Virus record (IMG/VR): IMGVR_UViG_3300013127_000027
Span: 1-25,519 of that record
From: a virus
Length of the DNA: 25,519 bases
Strand: one strand, 5' to 3'
This document shows, in pieces, positions 2,441 to 18,961 of this stretch. Below the pieces are notes generated by a model, which worked only from the letters and a program-made list of their open reading frames with translations, was not told the DNA's origin and did not search any database. The position numbers and the translations under genes are program-made. Every line of letters begins with the position of its first letter. Position 1 is the stretch's first letter.

Positions 2441-5400
2441 TCAACATCCGCAACCTCGCGCGGCTCGTGAAGGGCGGACCCTACATCGGGCCGAAGGGCG
2501 GTCTGTGGGCGGACCCGCAGCACACGATCGCGTGGCGAGACGACCACGAGGACGAGACCTCGCACCTGTTCCACTCCGCGCCCGCACACGCGATGAGCCG
2601 GATCAAGCGAGAGGGGCTCACGCCGCGCAAGGGCGCGGGGCTCTACCAGCACGGAGGCTACGCGGAGCACTCGCAGGGCAAGGTGTTCCTCTCGAACAAC
2701 CTCGCCGCCGCGAAGCAGTGGCACGGCAAGGTCGAGGATCAACTCTTCGATCAGCACGACGACGCGAAGAAGCACGTCGCGGTGATGCTACGCGTGAAGC
2801 CTCGCGAGACGCAGCGCGATGAAGTCGGCGACAAGGATGTGAGCGGCTCGCGCTTCGTGCGCGAGAACGTGCCTGCGAGCGACATCGAGTTCTTCCACGA
2901 GGGCACGAAGCGATGGAAGCCCGTGAAGGACTACGTGCACGGCACGCACGGTGCGCCCGAGGATCATTTCGAGGCGCACGCTGCGCGTGATGAAGCAGCG
3001 GATGCAGCCGAGAAGAAGGCGAAGCGCGACGCGAGTGCTGCGAAGCGCGAAGCCGAGAAGCAGGCATCGCGGGATCGTCTCGCGAAGATTCACGAAGAGA
3101 GCGCGAAGCGCGCCGCTGCCGAGGCGAGCGTGCACTTCCGCGACACCGACGAGGGGAAGGCGATCTTCACTCGGTACAAGGATCGCTCGCCCGAGGAGCG
3201 CGAAGCCAAGGCCAAGCGCATCATCGAAGCGCCGCGCCCGTTCCCCGGTGCTCCCTCGATGCTGTCTCTCGGGCAGCGTGGCGAGGTGTGGCGCGAAGCA
3301 CTCGGCGTGGACGAGAAGGGCAAGCTCATCGAGTCGAGGCACGAGCACGACAAGCTGCACGGGATGGTCGTGCGCCCGAACGGGTGGAACGCGACGAGCG
3401 AAGAGGCTCACGAGCACCTCTCGACGCTCGCGAAGAAGGACTCCGCGTGGCGAGGCATGACGCACGCGGAGTACGAGAACACCGTCGGGCGCGGCGAAGG
3501 CGTGCGCAGCACGGGCGCGTACTCACACGCGAGCGAGGGCACGCAGTTCTCGGAGGATCCTCGCGACGCAGAGAGTTACGCGAACTACGGGAAGGATGAT
3601 CCGCGCAAGTCGGGCAAGCCGACGTATCTCGTCGAGGTCGATCGCTCGAAGCTCACGAAGAAGCCGGATGGCTACTACGAGACGAAGGCAGGCGAGGGAC
3701 TCGCGCACGAGCACGTGCGCGGCGTGTGGAAGTTCGAGGCGAACGACAAGGGCGAGGTCGTCGCATCGCGCGTGTCGAAGGCCGCTCCGAAGATCAGCGT
3801 GGACATCCACGACTCGCATCACGGGCAGGACGACGGCACGGTGCGCACAGACGGCGGCAAGCTCGACTTCTCGATCTATCAAGGGCGCGCGCACATCCGC
3901 ATGGTCGAGTCGTCGCGCAAGCGCGCAGGTGTTGGCCGCGCGCTCGTGAACCGTCTCGCCGAAGAGGTGGGCGGCTACGACAAGATCGATTGGGGGATGA
4001 TGACGCCAGACGGCGTGGCGTTGCGCGATGCGCTCGATCGCGAGCACGGCTTCGATCGTACGGAGATCCCGATCGACGCGAAGAAGGTCGTGAACGAGCA
4101 CGAGGGCAAGCTGCTCTCACACGAGGATGGGCGACACGAGAACACGCAGCGCGTGTACGTCGAGTTCGATTCACCCGAGCGCGCGCAGAAGTTCGTCGCC
4201 AAGGTGCGCGAGATGAACAAGCACAACGAGGACGCGACCGAGCCTGACGTGCAAGAGATGGACGGCAAGGCGTGGGTCGAGGCGGAGATCCCAACGGCGA
4301 TCCCGAAGCGGCTCACGAAGTCGCAGCGCTTCGTGATCCCGCTCGTCGGCAAGGCACGCAAGCTCCACAAGCGGCGCGTGTTCGGCGGGCTCTCGATCAG
4401 CGTCGAGACGCGCAAGGGAGCGAAGCGTCACTGGCACGACCCGCACTCCGGCGAGTCGGGCTCGACGACGATGCTGCACGACTACGGCTACATCCGCGGC
4501 TCGATGGGCAGTGACGGCGACCATGTGGACGTGTACGTCGGTCCGCACGAGGACGCGACGCACGCCTACGTGATCGACCAGATGAGGAAGCCCGACTTCA
4601 AGAAGTTCGATGAGCAGAAGGTGATGCTCGGCTTCAAGAGCGCCGCGTCCGCGAAGAAGGCGTACCTCGCGCACTACAACGACGCGCGCTTCTTCGGGTG
4701 CATGAACGCGATCCCGTTCGCGGAGTTCGCGACGAAGGTGCTCGCGACGAAGGACGCAGCGATGAAGGTCATCACGAAGAAGAGCATCCCACTCGGCGGG
4801 CTCACGCTCTTGCTCAAGAGCGCGATGCCGAAGAGCGGCGGATGGCAGCCGATCCCCGGAGGCAAGCACGGAGGATGGCGTCGCTGGCGCGGCGGCAAGT
4901 GGGAGTACGACTACGGCACGCGCGAGAGCGGCGAGCACAAGCCGACGCACGATCACACGAAGTGGAAGTCGAAGGAGCAGTTCTCCGAGGAGGACTACCG
5001 CGAAGGCCGCTTCGACTACGACCCGCTGCACTGGCACCCGCGCGAGCACGCGGGCGGCGAGCACCGCGCGTGGGTCACTGGTGGCGTGGACCCGCACTCC
5101 CTCGCTCCGGTCAAGACGGGCGGGCGCATCGACAAGCTCTACCAGATCGAGAACCCCGAAGAGGACCGCGGCTTCGCGTTGCTGCGCGACCTCGCGACGG
5201 GCGAAGCGGTGATCATGCAGCACAACCGCATCTACGCGGTCGAGCACGATCCGCTCAAGTACAAGACGCTCGCGAAGCCCGAGAAGGAGCGCTGGGATCC
5301 GACGACGGGGCGCACGGTGCGCGCAGCGACGGGCAAGGGCCCGTCGTTCGAGGGCTCGCAAGCCGACAAGGAGAAGCAGCCGGGGCTCTACGCGATCGAG

Positions 5401-7257
5401 AACGGCGTCTACCCTGTGAAGGCAGTCTCGCGCCTCGAACCGGGCACCGAGCAGAAGGAGAAGCCCGTCGTCACGCTCGCAGTGACGGACCACGGCAAGA
5501 CGTTGCTCGTCTCCGAGTTCAAGGGGCTGATCGAGAGCCGCGTGAAGAAGTATCAGCGCGCGTACGGCGTGAAGGATGTGTACGAGCGCAACGACCGCGG
5601 CGCGCGTGCGACGAACGTCACGCAGCGCGAACTCGCGCAGGCTGGCGTCGAGGGACTGCTCGTCGCGATCGAGAAGTACCAAGTGAACAAGCCGTTCGCG
5701 GCGCACGTGACGCACTACGTGCAGAACTACATCCGCCTCGCGTGTGCCCGCGAGCGTGCGGGCGGCATTGAGCTACCGGACACGCATGCGAGGAACCTCT
5801 CGAAGTACCTCGCGGCGCGCGCGGAAGCGTCGCACGCGCTCGACAAGGAGAACCCGACACCCGAAGAGGTGCTCCCGTACTTCAAGCTGCTCAAGCGGCA
5901 CGTACATCCGAACCTCGACGCGGCGGAGGGCAGCACGCCCGTGCCGATGGAGAGCTACCGACTCACGGCGCACGAAGAGAAGGACGCGAAGGCACGCGAG
6001 GTGATCGAGCGCGAGCGTCGTCGCCTCATGGAGAGCATGCGAGCGTCGAAGAAGGCGGGGCACGCAGTCAGCGAGAGCGACAAGGAGAAGGTCGCGAAGC
6101 TCGACGAAGCGCTCACGAAGCTCGACGACAAGAAGATGCGCGACACGGAGACGCGTCCAGGCAGGCGCGAACTCGCCGAGTTGTACGACTCGTTCCTCAC
6201 GGGCGCGTCGAGCCCATCCGATATCTTCGATCTCGAAGAGGGCTTCGCGTTCCCCGGTGTCGAGGTGGGCGCAGGTCTCGACCCTGCCGAGCGCGTGCTC
6301 GTGCGCCGCTCGACGCAGCGCGTGCTCGACGAGATGAAGGACTTCCAGATCACGTCGGAGGGTCGCAAGAAGATCACCTACTCCGCCGACGTGGGCGAGA
6401 TGATCGCGCAGCGACTCGGGCTGCGCGGCGACGGCGAAGAGCGCACGACGGCGGAGATCGCGCGCGACGTGCCCATCCACGCGAACGGCAAGCCGCTCGC
6501 GCTGCGACAGGCGCAAGAGATCGCGGAGACGATGATCGAGCGCGGGCTCGCACACGTGCGCTCGAAGCTCGCCGACCACGACGACGTGACGAACGCGTCG
6601 CTGATCTTCGGTCGCGCTGCCGAGAAGCTCACGCCGCAACCGCGCGCGGTACCTGGCCCGACGTGGACCGAGATCGTGAGTACGCGAGCGCAGAACGTGA
6701 CGCCTACGCAGATCGCGGAGTGGCGCTCGACCGAGCGTCGCCGTCTCTCCGGCATCGCGGAGCGCATTCGAGCGCGCGCGGAGTATGAGCACGACGCAGC
6801 GTCGCGCGAGAAGCAGCACGCGCTCGCGCGAGACACGGATGCGGCAGCGTCGCGTGTCGCGCAGATCGACGAGAGCGAGATCCGCATGAAGATCGCGAGC
6901 GCGGTCTCTCCCGAGACGGCGGAGATGCGCGCGCTCGCGACGCGCTCGGTCGCGATCGAGGGCGAGTACCGCGGCTACGAGCGCACGACGACGCTCATGC
7001 CGATCACGGACATCCGCACGGGCGAGTCGCGCATGGCGCGCGTGCGCTCGCTGCGCGACCTGCGCGACCCCGAGGAGCTTCCGACGGGCGAACTCGGGCT
7101 GCGCAAAGCACGCTCGCGCGTCACGACCGGGATGGTCCGTGAAGCGCTACACTACCCGCGCACCATGCTACTGCTCACCTCGCCCAAGGGGTTCGCGAGT
7201 GCGCCGACGAAGGCGCGCGCGGCATTGGAGCGACTCACGCTCGGAGACTTCGGATGA
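2437..7257 (+). CDS. Polyvalent protein: two ART-like domains, GNAT, pyrophosphatase-like and sigma-70-like domains (1606 aa)
   Basis: I chose the GTG at 2437 because it overlaps the previous stop (GTGA) and has GAGG seven bases upstream. The N-terminus carries a GGPYIGPKGGLWADP motif, a type common in phage polyvalent proteins. Residues 40-165 resemble an ADP-ribosyltransferase (LFHSAP, I-x3-GL, VFLSNN followed by an A). A charged coiled coil follows, then a second ART-like domain (about 330-425: WRGMT, FSEDP, A-x2-Y). Residues 465-545 look like a GNAT fold with a G-x-G acetyl-CoA loop (RKRAGVGRAL, 494-503). Residues 655-775 match the inorganic-pyrophosphatase-like domain of polyvalent proteins (YGYIRGS, DGDHVDVYVGP, FDEQKVMLGF). 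After a Gly/Trp linker, residues 1030-1380 resemble sigma-70 regions 2, 3 and 4. The C-terminus is charged and helical. Family knowledge says such proteins are packaged and injected with phage DNA; that is inferred here from gene position between Mu F-like and capsid genes. Catalytic activity of each domain is unproven. Confidence 0.85.
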   Translation: MINIRNLARLVKGGPYIGPKGGLWADPQHTIAWRDDHEDETSHLFHSAPAHAMSRIKREGLTPRKGAGLYQHGGYAEHSQGKVFLSNNLAAAKQWHGKVEDQLFDQHDDAKKHVAVMLRVKPRETQRDEVGDKDVSGSRFVRENVPASDIEFFHEGTKRWKPVKDYVHGTHGAPEDHFEAHAARDEAADAAEKKAKRDASAAKREAEKQASRDRLAKIHEESAKRAAAEASVHFRDTDEGKAIFTRYKDRSPEEREAKAKRIIEAPRPFPGAPSMLSLGQRGEVWREALGVDEKGKLIESRHEHDKLHGMVVRPNGWNATSEEAHEHLSTLAKKDSAWRGMTHAEYENTVGRGEGVRSTGAYSHASEGTQFSEDPRDAESYANYGKDDPRKSGKPTYLVEVDRSKLTKKPDGYYETKAGEGLAHEHVRGVWKFEANDKGEVVASRVSKAAPKISVDIHDSHHGQDDGTVRTDGGKLDFSIYQGRAHIRMVESSRKRAGVGRALVNRLAEEVGGYDKIDWGMMTPDGVALRDALDREHGFDRTEIPIDAKKVVNEHEGKLLSHEDGRHENTQRVYVEFDSPERAQKFVAKVREMNKHNEDATEPDVQEMDGKAWVEAEIPTAIPKRLTKSQRFVIPLVGKARKLHKRRVFGGLSISVETRKGAKRHWHDPHSGESGSTTMLHDYGYIRGSMGSDGDHVDVYVGPHEDATHAYVIDQMRKPDFKKFDEQKVMLGFKSAASAKKAYLAHYNDARFFGCMNAIPFAEFATKVLATKDAAMKVITKKSIPLGGLTLLLKSAMPKSGGWQPIPGGKHGGWRRWRGGKWEYDYGTRESGEHKPTHDHTKWKSKEQFSEEDYREGRFDYDPLHWHPREHAGGEHRAWVTGGVDPHSLAPVKTGGRIDKLYQIENPEEDRGFALLRDLATGEAVIMQHNRIYAVEHDPLKYKTLAKPEKERWDPTTGRTVRAATGKGPSFEGSQADKEKQPGLYAIENGVYPVKAVSRLEPGTEQKEKPVVTLAVTDHGKTLLVSEFKGLIESRVKKYQRAYGVKDVYERNDRGARATNVTQRELAQAGVEGLLVAIEKYQVNKPFAAHVTHYVQNYIRLACARERAGGIELPDTHARNLSKYLAARAEASHALDKENPTPEEVLPYFKLLKRHVHPNLDAAEGSTPVPMESYRLTAHEEKDAKAREVIERERRRLMESMRASKKAGHAVSESDKEKVAKLDEALTKLDDKKMRDTETRPGRRELAELYDSFLTGASSPSDIFDLEEGFAFPGVEVGAGLDPAERVLVRRSTQRVLDEMKDFQITSEGRKKITYSADVGEMIAQRLGLRGDGEERTTAEIARDVPIHANGKPLALRQAQEIAETMIERGLAHVRSKLADHDDVTNASLIFGRAAEKLTPQPRAVPGPTWTEIVSTRAQNVTPTQIAEWRSTERRRLSGIAERIRARAEYEHDAASREKQHALARDTDAAASRVAQIDESEIRMKIASAVSPETAEMRALATRSVAIEGEYRGYERTTTLMPITDIRTGESRMARVRSLRDLRDPEELPTGELGLRKARSRVTTGMVREALHYPRTMLLLTSPKGFASAPTKARAALERLTLGDFG

Positions 7258-7571
7258 ATCGCAAGCAGGCAGCGCAGCACGTGTTCCACGTCGCGAAGAT
7301 GGCCGGTGGCTCCGCCGAGCACGCGTTCGACCTTCGTCGTCGCGACGACGGTGGTATCGGGATCAGCAACGTGAAGATCCCTCTCAGCGCAGCCGAGCGC
7401 ACGCTGCTCTTCGCGCACTTCGGCGCGTCGCTCGTCGCGCGCGATGGGACTCTCAAGGACGGGATGTTCGTCGAGCACCTCACGCCGCGCGAGCCCGGCA
7501 CGCCCGAGCACTTCCTCGCTGCGGTGCACCGACTGCCGCCGCCCTTCACCCTCATCGCCGTGGAGAACTGA
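7254..7571 (+). CDS. Hypothetical protein, 105 aa
   Basis: A small protein whose ATG overlaps the stop of the 1606-aa gene (ATGA) and which ends one base before the next gene's start codon, so it is translated within the same operon. The N-terminal part is basic (MNRKQAAQHVFHVAK) and the middle reads as a mixed alpha/beta domain (SNVKIPLSAAERTLLFAHFG). I see no signal peptide, membrane segment, metal site or catalytic motif. Its place between two giant predicted virion proteins suggests a partner or chaperone role for one of them, but that is only positional inference. I do not recognise the family. Confidence 0.75.
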   Translation: MNRKQAAQHVFHVAKMAGGSAEHAFDLRRRDDGGIGISNVKIPLSAAERTLLFAHFGASLVARDGTLKDGMFVEHLTPREPGTPEHFLAAVHRLPPPFTLIAVEN

Positions 7572-7572
7572 G

Positions 7573-10500
7573 ATGGCCTTCGTCGTTCCGTTGCGTCGCC
7601 TCGGCATCGCGCCCGAGGTTCTCTCGAAGGCGATCTCGCCGGGCTTCTCGCGTGGCGAGGTGGGCCCGCGCGCGCAGCACAAGTACGTGAAGCGCGAGTT
7701 CATCGGCTTCAAGGACGGCAAGCGGCTCTTCCGCTACTGGTACGCCGACGACGTGGCGCGCGAGCGCGCGGAGAAGGCAGCGACCGGTGAGGAAGCCGAG
7801 CACTACACGATCGAGACGATCCACAAGTTCTACGAGCACCTCGCGAAGAACCGCGTGAAGCCGTCGGAGGTCACGGAGGAAACGCTCCGCGCGATCCTCG
7901 GCGTCGAAGAGGTGCCCGTCGAGGTGCGTGCGTCGTTCCTCAAGAGCTACCACGCGCCGTTCATCCTGAAAGAGCGCGAAGCGGCGTTGAAGAAGAGCGG
8001 TGGCTACGACCCGCCGCGCTACCCGTTGCAGCGCGCACACCGCGCGTTCCAGATGATCCCCGACGCGATGCGCCTCGCGCTCGGCGACTCGCTCAGGAAG
8101 GTCGTGATCGCGAACCGCAGCGATCCCGACATCATGCAGATGTACGCGGGCGATGATGAGGACGGCAAGCCGAAGCGACGCCCCGCGGGCTTCTACGATC
8201 GCGAGAAGGGTGCCATCTTCCTGCTCGCGGATGGGTCGAGCGAGTTCGGCTCGCTCGACGGGCCGGGCGCGGAGACGACGTTCATCGAAGCGAAGGGATG
8301 GCCCCGCTTCGGCAGCCCGTTCACGTGGACCGAAGAGGTCGTGTGGCACGAGGCAGCGCACGCGCTGCACGACGTGTTCATCAAGGGCAACGACGACCAG
8401 AAGAAGGTCTGGAAGGACTGGCTCGAACTCGAACAGGTCGAAGCAGTGCGCGTGTCCGACTACGCGTACGGTCCTCCCGACAACCCGCGTGCAGGCCCCT
8501 TCGAGGATTGGGCGGAGAGCATCGCGTGCCTGATCTCGCATCCGAAGCAACTCGCGATTCAGTGCCCCAAGCGCTACGCGTTCCTGCGCGAGCACGTCAT
8601 TCCCGGCCCGTCGATCGAGGAGATCAAGGCCACGCCCGATGAGGCTCTCGCGTGGTGGGACGCGCAGCCGACGACGAAGGCTGCGAAGCTGCTCGCCGCG
8701 AGTCGTCGTCACGAGGGAGGTCCGCCGAACTACGCGGAGGCGTTCCACAGCGACAAGGATCAGTTCTACTCGCTCATGGTGGACGGCCGTTCGATCTTCA
8801 TGAGGATGGGCCCCGCCGACAAGGAGCAAGAGAAGGGCTGGGTTCCGATCCCCGAGACGATCGATCCCGAGACGGGGCTCCCCGTGTTCGATGCGGCGAC
8901 TGCGCTTCGCTGGAAGGCCGCAGAGGGCTTCAAGGAAATCTACGACGAGCACGGCACGCCGCTCACGAACGAGCAGGCGTTGCTCTACCTGCGTCAGAAC
9001 GACAAGGACTTCTCCGACAAGCAGCCCGAGGTCGAAGGCTGGGATGGGAAGTTCGACGCGACCGACAAGCTCTCGTACCAGATATACATCGCGCTCGGGC
9101 AGAGCACGGGCACGTTCGAGGAAGAGCGCGCACGCGTGCGTGAGGCGCGCTCGACGCCGCGCGAGAAGCTCGTCTCGAACGCGGAGTCGAAGCTCAAGCG
9201 TGCCGTGAAGGCGGGCGCGAAGGGCGACGAGACGCCCGCGGAGTACGAAGAGCGGCTCGCGGGCATTCGTGACGAGATCGAGACGCTCAAGAGCGGCAAG
9301 GGCGACCCCGCCGCCGTCAACCGGCACAAGTACGCGCCACATCCTCTCTCGAAGGAGGACTTCGAGCGCATCACGCCGACGTTCAAGTTCACGAAGGTCG
9401 CGAAGGCGGAGGTGCAGCCGCACGTGCGCCGCGTGTGGGACCGCGCATCGAAGAAGTGGGCAGCGAAGATCGGGAAGGACCCCGTGACGGGCAAGGACGC
9501 GCCCGTGCTCACGCGCACGCTCTACGAGATGCCGAACCCCGACGGCACGCGCACCGTGATCCCGGTGAACTCGCAAGAGCCGTTCGAGGTGGGGCAGATC
9601 ATCGCGGTGCCGCAGACGATCACGAAGCTCACGAAGCGCGGCGTGAAGTCGCTCGAACAGGCGTGGATCAAGTACAAGATCAACGCGGATGGGACGCTCA
9701 CGCCGCAAGAGAAGCGCACCAGCTACACCGAGGTGGACGGCAAGCGGAAGCGCGTCACCTCGGAGTGGCCGACGATCAAGTACACGAGCGTCGATGCGGT
9801 GAAGCTCGCTCGCGACTGCGGCACGAACGTCGAGAAGCTGCTCGAACGGAACGGCCGCTACGCTGCCGGGCAGATCACCGACCCGATGCTCGCGTCGCTG
9901 ATCAACCCGAGCGGTCAGCGCATCCGCAACGAGGGCGACCTCGCGGAACTCATGCGCAAGGCTGCGAAGGAGCGCACGAGCACGTGGATCACCGTGCAGG
10001 GTGAGGGCTCGGACCCCGAGAACCCGACCTTCGCGCACGTGAAGATGACCTTCGACGGCGGCGGCAACCCGCTGCTCGCGGGCGAGTATTGGAACCGACA
10101 ACTCGGTCTCTCGCACGGCGACCAGGCGCGCACGGACGCGCTGCTCGACGCAGAGGGGAAGATCCAGATCGAGAGCGTGCGCGAGGTGAAGCCGCGCAAG
10201 CTCGACTTCTACGTTGGCGGGCCCGCGCGCTACCGCGACCTCAAGACCGGCCACCTGATCTACGGCATCATCTCGAAGATCGACGAAGAGAAGGACGAGG
10301 ACGGCACGCCCACGGGCAAGCGCATGTTCACCGTCTCGCCGATCAAGGGGCAGGGTCACGGCTTCACGAAGCGGCAGACGATCTCCGAGGAGAAGGCGCA
10401 GCAAGCGCTCTCGTCGATCGACGTGGACAACATCCGCCGCACGCGACGCAACGTGCATCCGCTCAAGTCGCACCTCTTGCTCTACGCCGACAACCTGCGG

Positions 10501-13500
10501 ATCGGCGCGGACGGCACGCTGCGCGGCGCGACGATCCGCGTGAAGCTCCCGTCGGACGGATCGATCTCGTGGGAAGAGGTGCACCGTCTGCCTGCGATGC
10601 GGATGGACTCGAAGGGCATGATCACGGTCGATCTCAAGAACGTGAACCTGCTCCGCGACGTGTTCGGCGGCTTCGTGATGGACAAGTACGTCAACCGTCT
10701 GCTCGAAGCCCAGCAACGCGCCGAGAAGGTCACGGTCGAGCGCGCGTCGCGTACGGATGTGATCGCGACGACGCAACTGATCGCGCCCGATGGTGGCGTG
10801 AACGTGAACTCGAACGAGGGCGGTCTGCTCAAGGGGCTGCGCGAGTTCACGCCCGACGGCAAGCGCTTCAAGCTCGGCTCGCACCAGGAAGAGTTCCTGC
10901 GCTTCGCTGCACGCGCGCAAGGTCGCTGCATGGCCGCGCACTTCATGGGCACCGGCAAGACGGTGAGTGCCATCGCGGCGATCCAGATGTTCAAGAACGC
11001 GAAGAAGGAGGATGGCACTCCGATCGCGGGCGCACCGAAGAAGCGCGTCGCCGTCGTCGTGCCGCTCAACACCGCAGCGCAGTGGGAAGCCGCTGTCCGG
11101 TACTACACCGATCGCCCCGTCACGCTGATCGGTGCACCGTCGCTGCCGAACTCGCAGCAAGCGTACAACCCCGACAGTTGGCCTTCCGACGCGAAGGGTG
11201 AGGGCCCCGAGGCGGAGGCTGCCGCGGAGGCAGCGCGCAAGGCGTGGCTCGCGGAGAACCCGCGAGGCTGGGATCCCGAGCGCGACAAGGACACGGAGAT
11301 CGTGATCATCCCGTGGCAGTACTTCCAGAAGAACGAGCGCGACCTTCGCCAGCACGGCGACTTCGACGGCATCATCGTGGACGAGGCGCACGGCTTCGCG
11401 AAGGAGAGCGCGCGCTCGAAGGTGCTCGACTCGTGGAACCCGAACATGGAGATGATGCTTCTCCTCACGGGTACGCCGATCACGAACAAGCTCGACGACC
11501 TCCCGCGCTACCTCGATCTGCTCTCGAACGGCAAGAGCCCGCTCGGTACGCGTGAAGAGTTCGCGGAGCGCTTCCTCGTGAAGAGCGCCGCGCTGCGCGC
11601 GAATGGCAGCAAGAGCGCGGCGCTCACCGACCTCAACCCGAACCGCGCGAACGAACTCGGCGGCATCCTCTCCGCGTACCTGCACGTCGCGAACAGCGAA
11701 GACGTGAAGGGCAAGACGATGCCTGCGGTGCTGCTCGACGAGAACCAGCCCGCGCACATGATCGGCGTGCAAGAGCGCGTCTACCGACTCGCGATGGCAG
11801 CGCTCAACAGTGCGGATGTCGAGAAGCTCGAACAACTCGGAGTGCTCGGGCTCGACGAGAAGAGCGTCTTCCGCGGCAAGGACGGTGACAAGGCTCGCCG
11901 CAAGGTGAACATCGCTCGCGCGTTCGCGAACTCGCCCGGCTACAAGCCGCCGAACGACGAGAAGTTCGTCACGTGGATCCAGACCGACGAGGGTAAGGTC
12001 AACAAGAAGACCGGCGAGGTCGAGATCAAGGAGACGAAGCACGTTCTCGAACTCCCGAGCTTCAAGCGACTCACCGCGGCAGTGGCGGATGGTGGCTTCG
12101 ACGGCAAGTGGCCGAACAAGGCCAGCGTGCGCAAGGGGAACATTCACCTCGGCGAGTACGAGGCGTTCGTGTTCCACATCGGGAACATCCTCGGCGTGGA
12201 CTACGAGAAGAAGCTCGCGGGCAAGAAGGTCAGCGGCGCGCTGCTCGATCAGATCAGCAAGGGCAACGTCAACGGGAAGAAGTGGGGCACCGTCGAGAAC
12301 GTCGAGTACGGTCCCGAGGGCGCGATCTCTCGCGGCTGGATGGACGACGGCGGCGAGCACCACGAGATCGAGATCGAGTTCGAGGGCGAGAAGATCACGA
12401 TCCCGTCGTCGCTGCGCTTCATCCGCGACCCCAAGCGCAGCGCGCAGGGCGTCTACTACCACGAGAAGGATTGGGACTTCACGACGAAGTTCGGCACAGG
12501 TGTCGAAGAGGACGAAGAGGACGAGTCGGAGGACGAAGAGGACGACTCGGGACCGAGCGAGGACGACAGTGCCTACGGGCCGACCGGCGGGCTGATCGTC
12601 GGCGGCGTCGAAGAGACGCTCGAAGATCACGCGATGGAGATCGTCGCGGGCGGCGATGGGCACATCACGCCGAAGGAAGCGATGAAGCGCGCGAAGGCGG
12701 AGCGCGCTGCGGTGCTGCGTCGTCGTGAGGCGCGGAAGAAGAAGATCGCTGCGGGCGTCGCCGTCGAGGAAGAGGGCGGCGAGAGCGGCGAGAAGAAGAA
12801 GAAGGGCTACAAGCCTCTCTTGCTGAACGGCAAGGAGTACGACCCGTCGATCCAGCGCTCGCCCTTCCGGCGTCGCGAGCGCGCGATGTTCGACGCGGTG
12901 CTCACGACGCAGAACGCGAAGTGCGACGAGATGGAGCGCTGGATCAAGCAGAACACCTCAACCAAGACGGGCGGGCACGAGGATCAACAGTTCATCCTCT
13001 TCGGCAACCGCGTCGGATCGTCGTGCCGCACGATGGAGTCGAAGCTGCGCGCGATGGGCTACATGGACGTGAACGAAGCGCTCGGGAACGAAGACCGCGG
13101 CTACTCGAACGACGCGGACAAGGCGCGCAAGCCCAAGACCGGGAAGTACTTCGTCACCTACTTCGGCAAGAGCGCGAACCTCGGTGATCGCGATCTCAAC
13201 TCGGAGATTTTCCGCAAGGTGAAGGACCCGACGGGCCGCGACACGGACACGAGCATGTTCGTGCATCGCTGCCTCACCGGCAGCGTGGGCAAGCCTCCCT
13301 CGATCGATGAAAAGACGGGCAAGGCTCCGTTCGTCGAGGGATGGAGCCCGACGGAGCGCACGCGCATCATGCAGATGTTCGCGGGCTCGGGTCCGAAGGG
13401 CGCGCTCGAAGCGCCCATCCGCGTCACGAAGCGCATCGTCAATGGCGAAGAGCGCTTCATGTACGTGTACGAATCGAGCATGACTGCGGGCGAGCGGAAG

Positions 13501-14982
13501 CAGATCAAGGATCTCGAAGCGAAGCAGATCGTCGCGACCGACCTCGATCAGAAGAAGCACTACGAGAACCTGCTCACGCAGGTGTTCGAGCGACACCTCA
13601 CCGAGAAGCCCCCGCTCACGCAGAAGCAGATCGACGTGTTCAACAGGTGCCAGTTCATGGTCGCGAGCGACGCTGCGCAGGTCGGTCTGAACTGGGGCAA
13701 CGCGAGCAAGCTCGGGATGTACGATTCGCTGCACTCGCCGATGCAAGAGTGGCAGCGCATCACACGCGCAGCACGAATGCTCGACGCTGCGATCCCCGAC
13801 GCAGCACGCCCGCTCTTCGCCAAGCTCGACAAGAAGATCCGCGAACTCGAACTCGACGGCGCAGCGAAGCGGCTCAAGGCGACCGGCATGACGGACGCGG
13901 CCATCCAGGCGATGAAGGACCGCGGCGAACTGACGCACGACACGGCATCGCGCGCGGGCTTCATGGAGTACGACGGGCTCGACGCTGCGATGCCTCTTGT
14001 GCAGGAAGCGTGGGACTCGCTCGATCCCACCGAGCGCAACAACGCGATGCAAGCGCTCACGAACTCGAAGAACGCGGCATCTCACAACCCGATCGCTGCG
14101 GCGGAGGCGTACTTCGCGAACCGCGCGCTCGAACGGATCCGCGAACTGCGTCCGCTGATCACGGCGGAACTCAAGCAGCGCGGGCGCGCGCTCCCGCCGC
14201 AGCAAGTCGCGCAGGACGACGGCACCGTCAAGGAGGTGCAGCGCATTCTCAAGCCCGAGGAGATCACGACGAGCGACGTGACGAACGAGATCGTCGAGAA
14301 GCACCTCACCGACTTCGAGAGGATGTTGCTGCGCTCGCGCAAGTACCTCGTGGACGTGAAGCGCTTCACGACGAGCGTGAACATGCCCGTCATGGAGAAG
14401 CAGAAGGATCCCGTCACGGGCAAGACCATGATGGTGCCCACCGACGAGATCGTGCCCGAGGCTCCCGCGAAGGCGGAGCTTTCGCAGATGACCTCGGGAC
14501 GCGCGAAGATGGCCCCGTACGAGTACATGATGGATGTGACTCAGAAGGGTCTGCTCCCGCGCACGAACTACGATCACCTCGCAGTGAGCGCGTCGTCGCT
14601 CGCGTGCTTCTCTTCGACGGCGAGCCCCACTCCGGTGAAGGCGAAGCCGCCGAAGATCCGCGCAGCGGCAGCGCGCCCTGCGATCCCGCCGCCCGGTCCC
14701 CCGGTCGAACCCGCGCCGCTCTCCGAGTGGAAGAAGAAGAAGATCGCCGCGTTCGAGAAGTACATGGAGAAGCGCGAGGCGCAGAAGGCGAAGCTCGCCG
14801 CGCAGAAGGTGAAGTGGGACGCGGCGTACAAGAAGAAGCTCGCGAAGAAGCGCAAGGAGGCGGCGAAGAAGGCCGCGGCTACGCGTGCAGCGAAGAAGGG
14901 CACGCCCGAGAAGATCAAGAAGGGCTTCATGGTGCCGCTGAACACGTTCCTCTTCGGAGCGAGTCGGCGGGGGGAGGCGTGA
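7573..14982 (+). CDS. Giant protein with N-terminal metallopeptidase and SNF2-type helicase/translocase core (2469 aa)
   Basis: Starts at ATG 7573 with GGAG seven bases upstream; in-frame codons further left lie inside the preceding gene. Residues 225-345 hold a zinc metallopeptidase-like domain: HEAAH at 259-263 and FEDWAE with Glu311/Glu315 as candidate third ligand. Residues 345-1090 are not recognised. An SNF2-type ATPase follows: Walker A GTGKT (1126-1130), DEAH (1270-1273), TGTPITN from 1299, then a long insert with an acidic stretch (1645-1666) and Lys-rich segments. The second RecA lobe has QFILFGNR (about 1806), a GLNW motif near 2038 and the arginine-finger helix WQRITRAAR (2060-2068). 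The C-terminal 200 residues are Pro-rich, then Lys/Ala-rich and coiled, ending in KGFMVPL. SNF2 enzymes move along double-stranded DNA and remodel bound proteins. In a phage polyvalent protein this could strip host proteins from entering DNA or block restriction, as DarB-like proteins do; this role is inferred. The SNF2 call is firm. Confidence 0.87.
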   Translation: MAFVVPLRRLGIAPEVLSKAISPGFSRGEVGPRAQHKYVKREFIGFKDGKRLFRYWYADDVARERAEKAATGEEAEHYTIETIHKFYEHLAKNRVKPSEVTEETLRAILGVEEVPVEVRASFLKSYHAPFILKEREAALKKSGGYDPPRYPLQRAHRAFQMIPDAMRLALGDSLRKVVIANRSDPDIMQMYAGDDEDGKPKRRPAGFYDREKGAIFLLADGSSEFGSLDGPGAETTFIEAKGWPRFGSPFTWTEEVVWHEAAHALHDVFIKGNDDQKKVWKDWLELEQVEAVRVSDYAYGPPDNPRAGPFEDWAESIACLISHPKQLAIQCPKRYAFLREHVIPGPSIEEIKATPDEALAWWDAQPTTKAAKLLAASRRHEGGPPNYAEAFHSDKDQFYSLMVDGRSIFMRMGPADKEQEKGWVPIPETIDPETGLPVFDAATALRWKAAEGFKEIYDEHGTPLTNEQALLYLRQNDKDFSDKQPEVEGWDGKFDATDKLSYQIYIALGQSTGTFEEERARVREARSTPREKLVSNAESKLKRAVKAGAKGDETPAEYEERLAGIRDEIETLKSGKGDPAAVNRHKYAPHPLSKEDFERITPTFKFTKVAKAEVQPHVRRVWDRASKKWAAKIGKDPVTGKDAPVLTRTLYEMPNPDGTRTVIPVNSQEPFEVGQIIAVPQTITKLTKRGVKSLEQAWIKYKINADGTLTPQEKRTSYTEVDGKRKRVTSEWPTIKYTSVDAVKLARDCGTNVEKLLERNGRYAAGQITDPMLASLINPSGQRIRNEGDLAELMRKAAKERTSTWITVQGEGSDPENPTFAHVKMTFDGGGNPLLAGEYWNRQLGLSHGDQARTDALLDAEGKIQIESVREVKPRKLDFYVGGPARYRDLKTGHLIYGIISKIDEEKDEDGTPTGKRMFTVSPIKGQGHGFTKRQTISEEKAQQALSSIDVDNIRRTRRNVHPLKSHLLLYADNLRIGADGTLRGATIRVKLPSDGSISWEEVHRLPAMRMDSKGMITVDLKNVNLLRDVFGGFVMDKYVNRLLEAQQRAEKVTVERASRTDVIATTQLIAPDGGVNVNSNEGGLLKGLREFTPDGKRFKLGSHQEEFLRFAARAQGRCMAAHFMGTGKTVSAIAAIQMFKNAKKEDGTPIAGAPKKRVAVVVPLNTAAQWEAAVRYYTDRPVTLIGAPSLPNSQQAYNPDSWPSDAKGEGPEAEAAAEAARKAWLAENPRGWDPERDKDTEIVIIPWQYFQKNERDLRQHGDFDGIIVDEAHGFAKESARSKVLDSWNPNMEMMLLLTGTPITNKLDDLPRYLDLLSNGKSPLGTREEFAERFLVKSAALRANGSKSAALTDLNPNRANELGGILSAYLHVANSEDVKGKTMPAVLLDENQPAHMIGVQERVYRLAMAALNSADVEKLEQLGVLGLDEKSVFRGKDGDKARRKVNIARAFANSPGYKPPNDEKFVTWIQTDEGKVNKKTGEVEIKETKHVLELPSFKRLTAAVADGGFDGKWPNKASVRKGNIHLGEYEAFVFHIGNILGVDYEKKLAGKKVSGALLDQISKGNVNGKKWGTVENVEYGPEGAISRGWMDDGGEHHEIEIEFEGEKITIPSSLRFIRDPKRSAQGVYYHEKDWDFTTKFGTGVEEDEEDESEDEEDDSGPSEDDSAYGPTGGLIVGGVEETLEDHAMEIVAGGDGHITPKEAMKRAKAERAAVLRRREARKKKIAAGVAVEEEGGESGEKKKKGYKPLLLNGKEYDPSIQRSPFRRRERAMFDAVLTTQNAKCDEMERWIKQNTSTKTGGHEDQQFILFGNRVGSSCRTMESKLRAMGYMDVNEALGNEDRGYSNDADKARKPKTGKYFVTYFGKSANLGDRDLNSEIFRKVKDPTGRDTDTSMFVHRCLTGSVGKPPSIDEKTGKAPFVEGWSPTERTRIMQMFAGSGPKGALEAPIRVTKRIVNGEERFMYVYESSMTAGERKQIKDLEAKQIVATDLDQKKHYENLLTQVFERHLTEKPPLTQKQIDVFNRCQFMVASDAAQVGLNWGNASKLGMYDSLHSPMQEWQRITRAARMLDAAIPDAARPLFAKLDKKIRELELDGAAKRLKATGMTDAAIQAMKDRGELTHDTASRAGFMEYDGLDAAMPLVQEAWDSLDPTERNNAMQALTNSKNAASHNPIAAAEAYFANRALERIRELRPLITAELKQRGRALPPQQVAQDDGTVKEVQRILKPEEITTSDVTNEIVEKHLTDFERMLLRSRKYLVDVKRFTTSVNMPVMEKQKDPVTGKTMMVPTDEIVPEAPAKAELSQMTSGRAKMAPYEYMMDVTQKGLLPRTNYDHLAVSASSLACFSSTASPTPVKAKPPKIRAAAARPAIPPPGPPVEPAPLSEWKKKKIAAFEKYMEKREAQKAKLAAQKVKWDAAYKKKLAKKRKEAAKKAAATRAAKKGTPEKIKKGFMVPLNTFLFGASRRGEA

Positions 14983-14983
14983 G

Positions 14984-15268
14984 ATGAAGGCTCTCTACGC
15001 GTTCATGGGCAACGGGCTCACCGACGAGATCATCGAGAAGGGACTCGACCTCGGCTACTTCAAGGATCTGCCGAACGCATCGGCAGCGACGAAGGCACTC
15101 GACTACGTGAGTGACCCGAGCTTCATCGCGACCATCGCGCCGAAGCACACCGAGAAGGAGATCGCGGACCTCAAGCGTGCGGTCTACCGCGCGTGCGTCG
15201 CGCACGGCGTCCCGCTTCCATCACGCTGCGTGATCGAAGCGCGCCTGCTCGACGTGATCGTCCCCTGA
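14984..15268 (+). CDS. Hypothetical protein, 94 aa
   Basis: ATG at 14984 lies one base after the stop of the SNF2 gene and has a strong GGAGG Shine-Dalgarno at 14973-14977, inside the end of that gene. The product is mostly helical with a weakly conserved look: LTDEIIEKGLDLGYF near the N-terminus and a basic helix (IADLKRAVYRACVAHG) near the C-terminus, with two cysteines too far apart for a metal site. There is no signal peptide or transmembrane segment. The family is not recognised. Its location at the junction of the giant virion-protein genes and the capsid module suggests a small structural or assembly factor, but no direct evidence supports this. Confidence 0.75.
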   Translation: MKALYAFMGNGLTDEIIEKGLDLGYFKDLPNASAATKALDYVSDPSFIATIAPKHTEKEIADLKRAVYRACVAHGVPLPSRCVIEARLLDVIVP

Positions 15269-15617: not shown

Positions 15618-16439
15618 ATGGAACTCGGCACGGACATCCTCACGCGACGCGGCGACTTCCGCTTCGAGACTGACTGCGAAGTCTTCTCGAAGTCGGATGG
15701 GTCCGATCACGAGCGTCGCATCGGTGGGATCTGCACGACCGATGATCTCGATCGACAGGCCGAAGTGATCTTGCAGGACGGGCTCGACTTCGCGCCGTTC
15801 CTCAAGAGCGGATGGTTCAACGACAACCACGACCCGAGCACCGACGCGCTCGTCGGCTACCCCACGACCGCGCAGTACCGGCAACTCGGTCTGCGCAAGG
15901 GCTGGTACGTCGAGGGCTACTTGCTCAAGGGCTCGCCGCGCGCCGACGCGATCTGGATGCTCGCGAACGCGTTGCAGAAGACCGACCGTCGTCTCGGCTT
16001 CTCCGTCGAGGGCGCGGTCGCTGCGCGCGACGCTGCGAACCCGCTCACCATCCGCAAGGCAGTCGTGCGCGAGGTCGCGATCACCCGCTGCCCGGTGAAC
16101 GCGAGCACCGCACTGCACGTGCTCGCGAAGTCGCTCTCCGCTGGTGCCGCGGTGCCCGTGCCCACGACGCCCGTGACGGGCGACGGCGCAGGTCGCGTGA
16201 TCGCGCGACGCAGCGTCGAAGCGGACGCGCAGGGCAGCGTGGACCCGCTCAAGAAGAAGCGTCGCAAGAAGAACGGTGCGCCGCTCTCGGAGATGGAATC
16301 TCGACTGGTCGAGAAGGCGGAGCGCGGCGAGCCGATCTCGCGAGGTGAGGCGAGTGCACTACTTCGTGTGCTCGCGCCTGGCCTCTCGCAGAAGCAGGCA
16401 GACGCGATCACCGACTACCACTTCCGCTATCGAGCGTGA
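15618..16439 (+). CDS. Prohead (capsid maturation) serine protease, 273 aa
   Basis: This is an HK97-type prohead protease, which cleaves scaffold and capsid-associated proteins inside the immature head. The visible signatures are the NDNHDPS box with catalytic His71, the Ser129 in LGFSVEG, and the following REVAITRCPVN strand, in the order and spacing of the family. The first 175 residues form the protease domain. The remainder is a basic linker (KKKRRKK) and a helical tail that may be its own processing or scaffold-interaction segment. No clear Shine-Dalgarno precedes ATG 15618; a stable hairpin ends 18 bases upstream, which may matter for control. It is directly followed by scaffold-like and capsid genes, the standard order. 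The call is confident. Confidence 0.9.
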   Translation: MELGTDILTRRGDFRFETDCEVFSKSDGSDHERRIGGICTTDDLDRQAEVILQDGLDFAPFLKSGWFNDNHDPSTDALVGYPTTAQYRQLGLRKGWYVEGYLLKGSPRADAIWMLANALQKTDRRLGFSVEGAVAARDAANPLTIRKAVVREVAITRCPVNASTALHVLAKSLSAGAAVPVPTTPVTGDGAGRVIARRSVEADAQGSVDPLKKKRRKKNGAPLSEMESRLVEKAERGEPISRGEASALLRVLAPGLSQKQADAITDYHFRYRA

Positions 16440-16462: not shown

Positions 16463-17497
16463 ATGAGCAACGCGGCAACGACCCTCGATACCATGCAGGC
16501 ATCGCTCGACGAACTGCTCAAGGCAGCGGATGCGCACGGCACGATGCGCAAGGCGATGGGCGGCGTGGACATCGACACCTACGGGCACACGGACGAGCGT
16601 GGCAAGACCTCGGGCGGCTACGCCGAGGCGAGCGACGCGGGCAAGGGCGTCGATCTCTCCGACGAGGCGATCGTCGGCAAGATGAGCGAGGTCGGCCTCA
16701 ACGCGATGCAGGCGTCCGCGCTGCTCGGCTTCATGAAGCAGAACGGCATGATGGGCCGCGCCGACGGCGAGAGCGGCGGCAACTTCTTCGACCACGAGCG
16801 CCCGTCGCCGACCGGCAAGATGAAGGGCAAGGCGGGCGGCCCGCCGATGCCGCCCTTCAAGGGAGCGGCCGACGACGACATGGACGAGGACGAGGGCGAC
16901 GAGGACGAGGGCGACGAGGACGAGATGCCGCAGGTCGGCAAGCGCGGCATGCGCAAGTCGTTCTCCGACGACTTCTCCGCCGACTCCGACATCGCCGAGA
17001 CGGTGGATGTGTCGCCGTTCCTCGAAGCGGTCACGGCACGCACCGTCGATGCGCTCGACTCGCTCAACAAGTCGATGCGCCGCAGCGAGCGGAAGCAGGG
17101 CGAGGTCAACGCTGCGATGGCAGGCGCGATGTACCAGATGGGCACGCTGCTCAAGTCGCAGTCGCGCGTCATCGACGCGCTCTCGCAGCGTCTCGGGCTC
17201 GTCGAGCGTCAGCCCGCGCCCGCGCGTGGCGCGGTCACGCTCTCCGGCGCGCAGGCGATGCAGAAGTCGCTCTTGGGCGGCGGCGCGGGCAGCACGCTCA
17301 AGAAGAGCGAGATGCTCTCGACGCTCTCCTACATGCGCATCGAGAAGGGCATGAAGGAGATCAACGGCCGCGCGATCGGCGACGTGATCTACGCCTTCGA
17401 GGGCGGTGGGATCATCAACCCTGAGGACGCCTCGACGATCGAGCGCTTCCTCACCACGCATCCGGCCGAAGCGCAGAAGGCCAAGACGTTCGCCTGA
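16463..17497 (+). CDS. Scaffold-like / capsid assembly protein, 344 aa
   Basis: I start at ATG 16463, which has AAGGAGAG at 16450-16457; an in-frame GTG at 16436 overlaps the protease gene but has a poorer ribosome site. The protein is highly polar with low-complexity stretches: a helical start, a Gly/Pro/Lys segment, a run of Asp/Glu/Gly repeats (about residues 141-154), and a C-terminal half rich in Met, Gln and Ser with coiled-coil character. An acidic, helical, poorly conserved protein between the prohead protease and major capsid genes is the usual profile of a scaffolding protein, which guides capsid assembly and is then degraded by the protease. No catalytic motif is seen. The role is inferred from composition and position rather than from recognised homology. 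Confidence 0.75.
   Translation: MSNAATTLDTMQASLDELLKAADAHGTMRKAMGGVDIDTYGHTDERGKTSGGYAEASDAGKGVDLSDEAIVGKMSEVGLNAMQASALLGFMKQNGMMGRADGESGGNFFDHERPSPTGKMKGKAGGPPMPPFKGAADDDMDEDEGDEDEGDEDEMPQVGKRGMRKSFSDDFSADSDIAETVDVSPFLEAVTARTVDALDSLNKSMRRSERKQGEVNAAMAGAMYQMGTLLKSQSRVIDALSQRLGLVERQPAPARGAVTLSGAQAMQKSLLGGGAGSTLKKSEMLSTLSYMRIEKGMKEINGRAIGDVIYAFEGGGIINPEDASTIERFLTTHPAEAQKAKTFA
16883..16924 (+). repeat. 15-base tandem repeat coding for an acidic run
   Basis: The unit GACGAGGACGAGGGC occurs twice in full, followed by twelve bases of a third copy, within the scaffold-like gene. It encodes repeated D-E-D-E-G. Such a short tandem array can change length by slippage in steps of five residues without breaking the frame. 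Confidence 0.85.
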
Positions 17498-17545: not shown

Positions 17546-18961
17546 ATGATGAGCAGCTTCGTCAGCGCGGCCCACTACCGCGACTTCCAGGGAGGCTGGG
17601 GCACGTCCTCGCCCGACGAGATCGCCGAGCTTCGCAAGGCACTCTTCGCGGGCGACAGCGTGAACGACCCCGGCGTGTCGCCCGGTCAGGGCTTCCCGCT
17701 GCGCACCGAGTCGCTCGAAGCGACCCTCAAGAACCTCACCTTCGAGATGGACGAGATCAAGCTCTTCAAGAGCATCCCGAAGGTGCCCGCGTTCAACACC
17801 GTCGAGGAGTACAACCGGCTGCTCTCCTACTCGAACGGCGGCGCGCGCCAGTTCGATCTCGGGTGGATGAGCGAAGGCGATCTCCCCGACGAGCAGGACA
17901 GCACCTATCAGCGCGTCACGGTGCTCATGAAGTTCCTCGGCGTCGTGGGTCGCGTGACCCACGTCGCGAGCGTCATTCGTCCCGCCCACGGCAACGTGGT
18001 CGCGATGGAGACGATGAACAAGACGATGTACATCCTCCAACAGTTGGAGAACGCGCTGTTCTTCGGCGACTCGTCGATCTTGCCGGAGCAGTTCGACGGG
18101 CTCTACACGCTGATCCGTCAGGGTGCGCCCGACAACGAGATCGATCTCCGTGGGCAGCCGCTCACCGAGGATCTCATGAACGACGTGCTGCTCCGCATCC
18201 GCGACAACTTCGGCACCGCGACCGACTTCTACTCGGCGACGGGTCCGTTCGGCGACCTCGCGAAGCAGGTCTACGACCGTCAGCGCTTCGGCATCGCGCC
18301 GCAGCCCGGCGTGCTCGGCGCGACCGTCTCGGCCTTCCAGGGGCAGCACGGGCGCATCAACCTGCACGACTCGATCTTCATCCAGCCCGGCGGCCTCGCC
18401 GTCGTGGCGGGTGTGGGGCTCGTGTCGAAGCGCCCCGGTCTGCCGACGATCAGCGTCGCTCCCGCGGCGGCACCGAGCGCGCTCTCGCAGTTCGCTGCGG
18501 GCGACGCGGGCACGTACATCTACCAAGTCGTCGCAGCGTCGCGCTACGGGCGCAGCGCTCCGGTGACGAGCGCTGCGGTCGCGGTCGTCGCGGGTGACGC
18601 CGTGACGTTCACCGTCACCGACGCGGGCCCCGGCACCTCGTACTACGAGGTCTATCGCACCGCGCCCGGTGGCGCGGCAGGCACGGCGAAGCTCATCACG
18701 AAGATCGCTCGCACGGGCGCGTCGCAGGTCATCACCGACCTCAACGCGGATCTCCCCGGCACCTCGAAGGCGTTCGCGCTCATGCAGAACCAGCGGTCGT
18801 TCTCGTGGTCGCAGCTTCTTCCGATGACGCGCATCCCGCTCGCGACGATCGACACGTCGATCCGCTGGGCGCAGGTGCTCTACGGCGGCGTGAAGGTCTA
18901 CACGCCCGCGAAGAACGTCGTGCTCAAGAACGTCGGTCGCGCCGCGGGCTCGCTGCCCTGA
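17546..18961 (+). CDS. Major capsid protein with Ig/FN3-like insert, 471 aa
   Basis: ATG 17546 is preceded by AAGAGGAG (17530-17537); a second ATG directly follows it. The protein follows the prohead protease and scaffold genes and has the look of an HK97-fold major capsid protein: an N-terminal helical arm, a central FNTVEEYN / FDLGWMSEGDLP region, the MNKTMYILQQLENALFFGDS helix, and a C-terminal RWAQVLYGGVKVYTPAKN strand region. Residues about 295-410 form an inserted beta-sandwich-like domain with FN3/Ig features (GTYIYQVVAASRYGRSAP, YYEVYRT, ITDLNADLPGTS). In phages such domains sit on the capsid surface and can bind host surfaces or stabilise the shell. Two strong inverted repeats follow the gene. 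The capsid call is confident; the surface exposure of the insert is inferred. Confidence 0.9.
   Translation: MMSSFVSAAHYRDFQGGWGTSSPDEIAELRKALFAGDSVNDPGVSPGQGFPLRTESLEATLKNLTFEMDEIKLFKSIPKVPAFNTVEEYNRLLSYSNGGARQFDLGWMSEGDLPDEQDSTYQRVTVLMKFLGVVGRVTHVASVIRPAHGNVVAMETMNKTMYILQQLENALFFGDSSILPEQFDGLYTLIRQGAPDNEIDLRGQPLTEDLMNDVLLRIRDNFGTATDFYSATGPFGDLAKQVYDRQRFGIAPQPGVLGATVSAFQGQHGRINLHDSIFIQPGGLAVVAGVGLVSKRPGLPTISVAPAAAPSALSQFAAGDAGTYIYQVVAASRYGRSAPVTSAAVAVVAGDAVTFTVTDAGPGTSYYEVYRTAPGGAAGTAKLITKIARTGASQVITDLNADLPGTSKAFALMQNQRSFSWSQLLPMTRIPLATIDTSIRWAQVLYGGVKVYTPAKNVVLKNVGRAAGSLP

Follow-up and report, generated by a model that had tools for sequence, protein, structure and literature searches.

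A methylase-free zincin-SNF2 polyvalent protein encoded among the head genes of phages whose capsid proteins are SPO1-like

Introduction

Phage polyvalent proteins that combine a zincin metallopeptidase (MPTase) with a SWI2/SNF2 ATPase, and whose genes lie in late operons, have already been described (Iyer 2017; PMC5512222). In that work the zincin of P1 DdrB was proposed to cut its own protein before packaging, and the SNF2 motor was tied to methylases, the adenine methylase being named as its usual partner. P1 DarB is a head protein that is present in about 40 copies a head and is packaged via its N-terminal 30 residues (PMC9024508). Dar proteins accompany the DNA on ejection and shield it from type I restriction, and DarA and Hdf demonstrate that Dar proteins can also act in head morphogenesis (PMC12810830). 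A DarB-like giant has been detected by mass spectrometry in JC1 virions (PMC9144972), and in jumbo phages an SNF2-type helicase has been linked to phage RNA polymerase genes (PMC7824862).

The protein considered here is encoded in a complete IMG/VR virus record of 25,519 bp, the whole of which is referred to as the window; the features of the window given below all lie on its + strand. The phage has a G+C content of 66% and is known from metagenomes only. A longer, 41-kb record of the same phage (G001) overlaps the window over 21,919 bp with four differences, none of them in the gene under discussion. The gene product is a methylase-free zincin-SNF2 polyvalent protein, which belongs to a clade of its own and has a conserved place in the head operon of phages whose capsid proteins are SPO1-like. 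Like the proteins of Iyer 2017 (PMC5512222), it carries a zincin and an SNF2 ATPase in one giant chain in a late, packaging-related context, next to proteins with pyrophosphatase-fold, GNAT and MuF-like domains; unlike them, it has no adenine methylase. As in polyvalent proteins generally, at least two unrelated biochemical domains are joined in one chain, and the gene is linked to portal and packaging late genes.

The gene and its SNF2 motor

A first-pass annotation had placed an SNF2-family gene at 10780-13800. That span covers the motor alone, the full gene extending over 7573-14982 and encoding 2,469 aa, with relatives P0002, P0003, L003, L027, L028, L029 and L031. The likely start is the ATG at 7573, just past the stop of a 105-aa ORF (7254-7571), the stop is at 14982, and coding periodicity is uniform across the whole frame. 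The motifs reported in the annotation were indeed found intact in this single open frame: GTGKT at 10948 (aa 1126), DEAH at 11380 (aa 1270) and TGTP at 11467 (aa 1299) in the first motor lobe, and GLNW at 13684 (aa 2038) and WQRITRAAR at 13750 (aa 2060) in the second. Lobe 1, with motifs I-III, occupies 10882-11790 (PF00176, aa 1104-1406, and a fold match), and lobe 2, with motifs IV-VI, occupies 12988-13902 (PF00271, aa 2016-2069). Both Pfam matches (SNF2-rel_dom, E 5.8e-21; Helicase_C, E 3.7e-6) pass the curated cut-offs, and together with the motifs they exceed chance by far. With both domains and motifs I, II, III, V and VI in place, the protein classes as a SWI2/SNF2 ATPase.

AlphaFold models were of low mean confidence (44.8 for the N-terminal 806 aa and 49.0 for a 1,061-aa core) and only their zincin core and lobe 1 portions are usable. 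The predicted structure of lobe 1, for which pLDDT is mostly about 60-86, matched ALC1 (E 4e-9), Rad54 (E 1e-7) and also ISWI in Foldseek; the model of lobe 2 is poor. All seven relatives retain the motor motifs, GLNW occurring in every one and QRITRAAR in most, with variants in the most distant of them (DEVH in L029; GTGKS, DESH and QRLARVAR in L031).

Regions outside the motor

The annotation had described the segments flanking the motor as being of unknown fold. This holds for the region between about aa 346 and 1103 (8608-10881), which has no Pfam match and low model confidence, but not for the N-terminal flank, which contains a zincin metallopeptidase-like domain at about aa 160-345 (8050-8607) with the signature HEAAH at 8347-8361 (aa 259). 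The model of aa 1-806 matched PPEP-3, a Pro-Pro endopeptidase (E 1.9e-4), and the lethal-factor peptidase fold (E 2.8e-4) in Foldseek. Because only the helical core of the zincin is modelled at pLDDT of about 70-80, this match is taken as a hint at the fold level, and the assignment combines that hint with the HEAAH signature. The protein thus resembles PPEP-3 and lethal-factor-type peptidases in its HExxH zincin and similar predicted fold, but identity to them is only about 14-16%, and one relative is without the site. The site is present in the window, G003, G004, L029 and L031; in L027 (L027:4664-11152) REVGR stands in place of HExxH and the SNF2 motor is intact. Since the motor is kept in all members and the zincin site is lost in L027, the motor appears, on this sequence comparison, to be more tightly constrained than the peptidase.

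Parts of the spacer between zincin and motor are as conserved as the motor itself, aa 750-850 being highly conserved. Between the two motor lobes lies a long insert (11791-12987), in which an acidic and then Lys/Arg-rich low-complexity stretch (about 12502-12807) is mostly missing from the relatives. The C-terminal region (13903-14982) ends in an Ala/Lys-rich tail.

The N-terminus itself is conserved. The three full-length close members share M[KA][FY]V[VI]PxRRLG (7573-7605 in the window), and the pyrophosphatase proteins of G003 and G004, whose genes adjoin the SNF2 gene, start with M[KR]Y[VI]IP. When all predicted proteins of these contigs were scanned for an N-terminal M[KAR][FY][VI][VI]P, only SNF2 and pyrophosphatase genes were found (window 7573-7605, L014:7420, L018:17075 on the minus strand, and L014:3867). 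We hypothesize that the shared peptide is a candidate head-targeting peptide; by eye, that of the zincin-SNF2 protein is unlike the DarB N-terminus. A Tyr/Arg-rich hairpin motif (HKYVKR...FRYWYAD, aa 36-59, 7678-7749) follows, for which confident matches are confined to head-operon proteins. Copies of the form HKYxxRk..GGWxYxY lie at window 7678-7749, L013:17741-19828, L019:14258-15250 and L014:3867-7094; the pyrophosphatase protein and a protein whose gene precedes the portal gene both have the motif, with no confident match in the other genes of the contigs, and proteins that bear it may be found in the same place. With a leave-out profile, from which the SNF2 copies were omitted, possible further head-operon copies were detected in L029 (E 0.034) and at 54515-57271 of G004 (E 0.17), but the SNF2 copies scored E 1-17, no better than chance matches, so that the hairpin of the SNF2 protein is suggestive only and its head-targeting role is no more than a lead.

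Relatives and the conserved head operon

Relatives were gathered from viral contigs, for which the protein, alignments and the lobe 2 motif each served as queries. They comprise L002 (the same phage), L003, G003, G004, L027, L028, L029/L030 (one lineage) and L031; identity to the window protein is 65% for L003, 54% for G003 (a 69-kb contig) and 52% for G004 (a 100-kb contig), and the contigs span 42-66% G+C. A tblastn search of 50,697 phage genomes with the whole protein gave no match at 1e-5, and a plasmid search gave nothing beyond one weak SNF2 match. A pattern-based scan of bacterial and archaeal genomes, through which distant relatives could slip, found no relative, and for that reason no host is named. 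Simple counts of dN and dS between the window and L003 were set aside, because strong third-position G+C bias makes them unreliable.

The annotation had placed the SNF2 gene between a polyvalent protein gene and the capsid operon. The order polyvalent protein, SNF2 protein, protease, scaffold and capsid is correct by Pfam and PHROG matches and recurs in the contigs of relatives. The window opens with the 3' part of a gene (2-2440, 5' end cut) for a MuF-like head protein, so assigned by inspection, with a zincin (HEIGH) and an aspartoacylase-like domain (PF24827, E 2.1e-6); its G003 relative has a weak head-morphogenesis match (E 0.005). The aspartoacylase/succinylglutamate desuccinylase-like domain forms the end of the window protein (1910-2386), and the G003 and G004 counterparts stop before it. 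Next comes the polyvalent protein (2332-7257, with 2437 a likelier start than 2332), which carries a pyrophosphatase-fold domain (about 4369-4734; PF18823, E 1.8e-33) and a sigma-70-like domain (about 5608-6132). The SNF2 gene is bracketed by two small ORFs with counterparts in relatives, one at 7254-7571 and the other, of 94 aa, directly after it at 14984-15268. Downstream lie the head maturation protease (15618-16439; phrog_1028, E 7e-46), the head scaffolding protein (16463-17497; phrog_15087, E 6e-10) and an SPO1-like major capsid protein (17546-18961; phrog_752, E 7e-85). Despite the 66% G+C of this phage, the capsid protein is 30-33% identical (tblastn) to those of Bacillus, Lysinibacillus and Bacteroides phages.

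In both G003 and G004 the order is terminase, portal, MuF-like zincin protein, pyrophosphatase polyvalent protein, small ORF, SNF2 protein, a small ORF of about 97 aa, head protease, scaffold and major capsid protein, the last three being assigned by position and by likeness to the window genes. The G004 pyrophosphatase polyvalent protein (L014:3867-7094) has a GNAT acetyltransferase domain that the shorter G003 protein lacks, a gain or loss of a domain that is typical of polyvalent proteins. L027 and L029 retain this order beginning with the MuF-like protein or what is left of it, and L028 and L030 retain it over the stretch that their contigs cover, while L031 has the portal upstream and other small genes instead of the pyrophosphatase gene. 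The head-operon site of the SNF2 gene, for which the annotation had proposed a synteny check, is thus conserved wherever flanks are present. Its location outside a replication region, likewise claimed, was borne out in the 100-kb G004, where the DNA polymerase gene is about 42 kb away; elsewhere this contig encodes DNA polymerase A, RecA, an SbcC-like protein, a DnaB-like helicase and a UvsW-like helicase, so that replication there has helicases of its own. A single SNF2 gene is present in each of the three long contigs. Taken as context, these findings argue strongly for a late role tied to the head and against one in replication, although packaging is not thereby proven.

Kinship with DarB and with replication helicases

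A tree of lobe 1 from 21 sequences, including eight members of the zincin-SNF2 family, was built as the SNF2-core phylogeny that had been suggested as a check. The family forms its own clade (support 99/99), apart from P1 DarB, the DarB-like giants and the phage replication helicases. The choice between a DarB-like and a replication-type placement is left unsplit, since AU tests rejected neither a topology in which the family was forced together with DarB (p 0.298) nor one in which it was forced together with the replication helicases (p 0.343). RapA is a long branch of unsure placement in this tree.

P1 DarB resembles the window protein in size (about 2.2-2.5 kaa), in its SNF2 motor and in the location of its gene beside head genes. 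It differs in that Pfam detects an N6 adenine methylase at its N-terminus but no zincin, and it acts together with other Dar proteins, whereas no other Dar gene was recognized in the zincin-SNF2 phages. The adenine methylase domain was absent by Pfam from all six zincin-SNF2 members scanned, the window protein included, and N6_Mtase, present in P1, was absent from the long contigs of the relatives; G004 has one separate small N6/N4 methylase in its early region. Because DarB's N6 methylase is absent from the members and contigs scanned, the family is not filed under DarB, and true DarB membership is rejected. By analogy, the protein would work at most "like DarB". The DarB-like or PLxRFG giants of JC1, SopranoGao, POI1126 and Mwe-JY07 are likewise giant SNF2 polypeptides in a clade separate from the zincin-SNF2 family; the annotation is DNA methylase for the Mwe-JY07 and POI1126 proteins and DarB-like for that of JC1.

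The best PHROG for the zincin-SNF2 protein is phrog_62, a broad "DNA helicase" group that includes phage replication helicases. Such helicases of RcXuper, Sixama, Poludnitsa and the Listeria phage LWP01 share the motor superfamily and phrog_62 with it, but are only about 450-640 aa long and have no giant flanks, and three of the four loci are near DNA polymerase genes.

Possible functions

The annotation had envisaged an injected DNA translocase similar in idea to DarB, which clears or protects incoming DNA. The intact motor of all relatives, the conserved head operon away from the replication block, and published precedent agree with this proposal, whereas close kinship to DarB is not supported, given the lack of a methylase, the separate clade and AU tests that rejected neither placement. 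The N-terminal peptide and hairpin, which are like those of other head-operon proteins, also speak for a head protein. An injected motor is plausible because the motor is kept in relatives, the head operon is conserved and the DNA polymerase gene is some 42 kb off, and packaging and delivery are probable because distant relatives keep the capsid-adjacent arrangement. By analogy with the described systems we infer packaging, ejection, translocation on phage DNA and a protective role. The favored reading, to which we assign a probability of roughly 0.55, is of a polyvalent internal head protein. It would be made late, would probably enter the prohead as this assembles, and would be ejected with the genome into the new host. 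There the SWI2/SNF2 motor would travel along the double-stranded DNA that comes in, displacing or blocking proteins bound to it such as restriction translocases, other complexes of defence and nucleoid proteins, while the N-terminal zincin would either process its own protein during head maturation or cut a host protein. The missing methylase suggests that movement by itself would do the clearing or blocking. If packaged, the protein would represent an SNF2 motor that virions deliver with no methylase fused to it and that distant phage lineages have retained, and the motor's own protective role would be separable from methylation; with DarB the two contributions are hard to tell apart because both domains share one chain.

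The placement of the SNF2 gene directly upstream of the protease, scaffold and capsid genes, where flanks are present, would also suit a factor that acts in the producing cell only, as an internal core protein or packaging-linked motor that is not ejected. The giant size and Lys/Ala-rich tail would be in keeping with a core protein, and P1 DarA and Hdf provide a precedent for Dar proteins in head morphogenesis (PMC12810830). The zincin and the variable domains of the neighbors, on the other hand, fit delivered effectors. To our knowledge no head assembly needs an SNF2 motor, and the terminase large subunit has a gene of its own, so that a role restricted to assembly is considered unlikely. We regard as distinctly unlikely a RapA-like transcription helper, in which the motor would act on RNA polymerase and, with the sigma-like domain of the neighbor, redirect host transcription to the phage DNA as it enters. 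That sigma-70-like domain (RpoS, E 3.6e-6), the adjoining of the two genes in G003, G004 and L027, and the link of an SNF2-type helicase to RNA polymerase genes in jumbo phages (PMC7824862) argue for such a helper; RapA is, however, a long unplaced branch, no RapA-specific domain was found by Pfam, the sigma-like domain was undetected in the L029 neighbor and L031 is without that neighbor.

A replication, recombination or repair helicase that lies in a late operon by happenstance would accord with the phrog_62 assignment and with the AU test, in which joining to the replication helicases was not rejected (p 0.343). Such a helicase is nevertheless very unlikely, given that the head-operon position is conserved in distant relatives, that G004 has a separate replication block, and that the zincin-bearing members measure 1.9-2.8 kaa vs 450-860 aa for the fetched helicases. 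Similar size, an SNF2 motor and a head-operon location are what a true DarB homologue, protecting by methylation plus translocation, would also display, but with no methylase in the six members scanned, and N6_Mtase absent from the relatives' contigs, this explanation is extremely improbable.

The sigma-70-like domain of the neighboring protein

At the corresponding place in four relatives, the window included, matches to sigma factors are individually weak (E 6e-4 to 0.07), but a profile made from the four matched RpoS (E 3.6e-6) and SigA (E 5e-5) over about 80-100 residues when compared with the PDB, the match to a region 4-like tail being insignificant. SNF2 genes and pyrophosphatase/sigma-like genes adjoin in G003, G004 and L027 as well as in the window; in the pyrophosphatase neighbor of L029 the sigma-like domain was undetected. 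The word "sigma" is absent from the main text of the polyvalent-protein paper (PMC5512222), and a limited search of the open-access literature found no injected sigma factor, which is no proof of novelty. Judged by these profile matches, the domain is possibly a virion-delivered sigma factor, and it is perhaps a more interesting lead than the SNF2 protein itself. It would open the delivery of a sigma factor by virions to testing. A combined scheme, in which the SNF2 and sigma-like proteins would be packaged together as an injected kit, the sigma factor aiming host RNA polymerase at phage promoters during DNA entry and the motor clearing or recycling polymerases and bound proteins on the genome coming in, is quite improbable. 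Apart from the head operon, the early region of G004 holds a pair of adjoining genes (L012:443-2359 and L011:18410-20000), a sigma-70 region 2 match (4.5e-6) lying next to a CobT-like VWA protein (7e-7).
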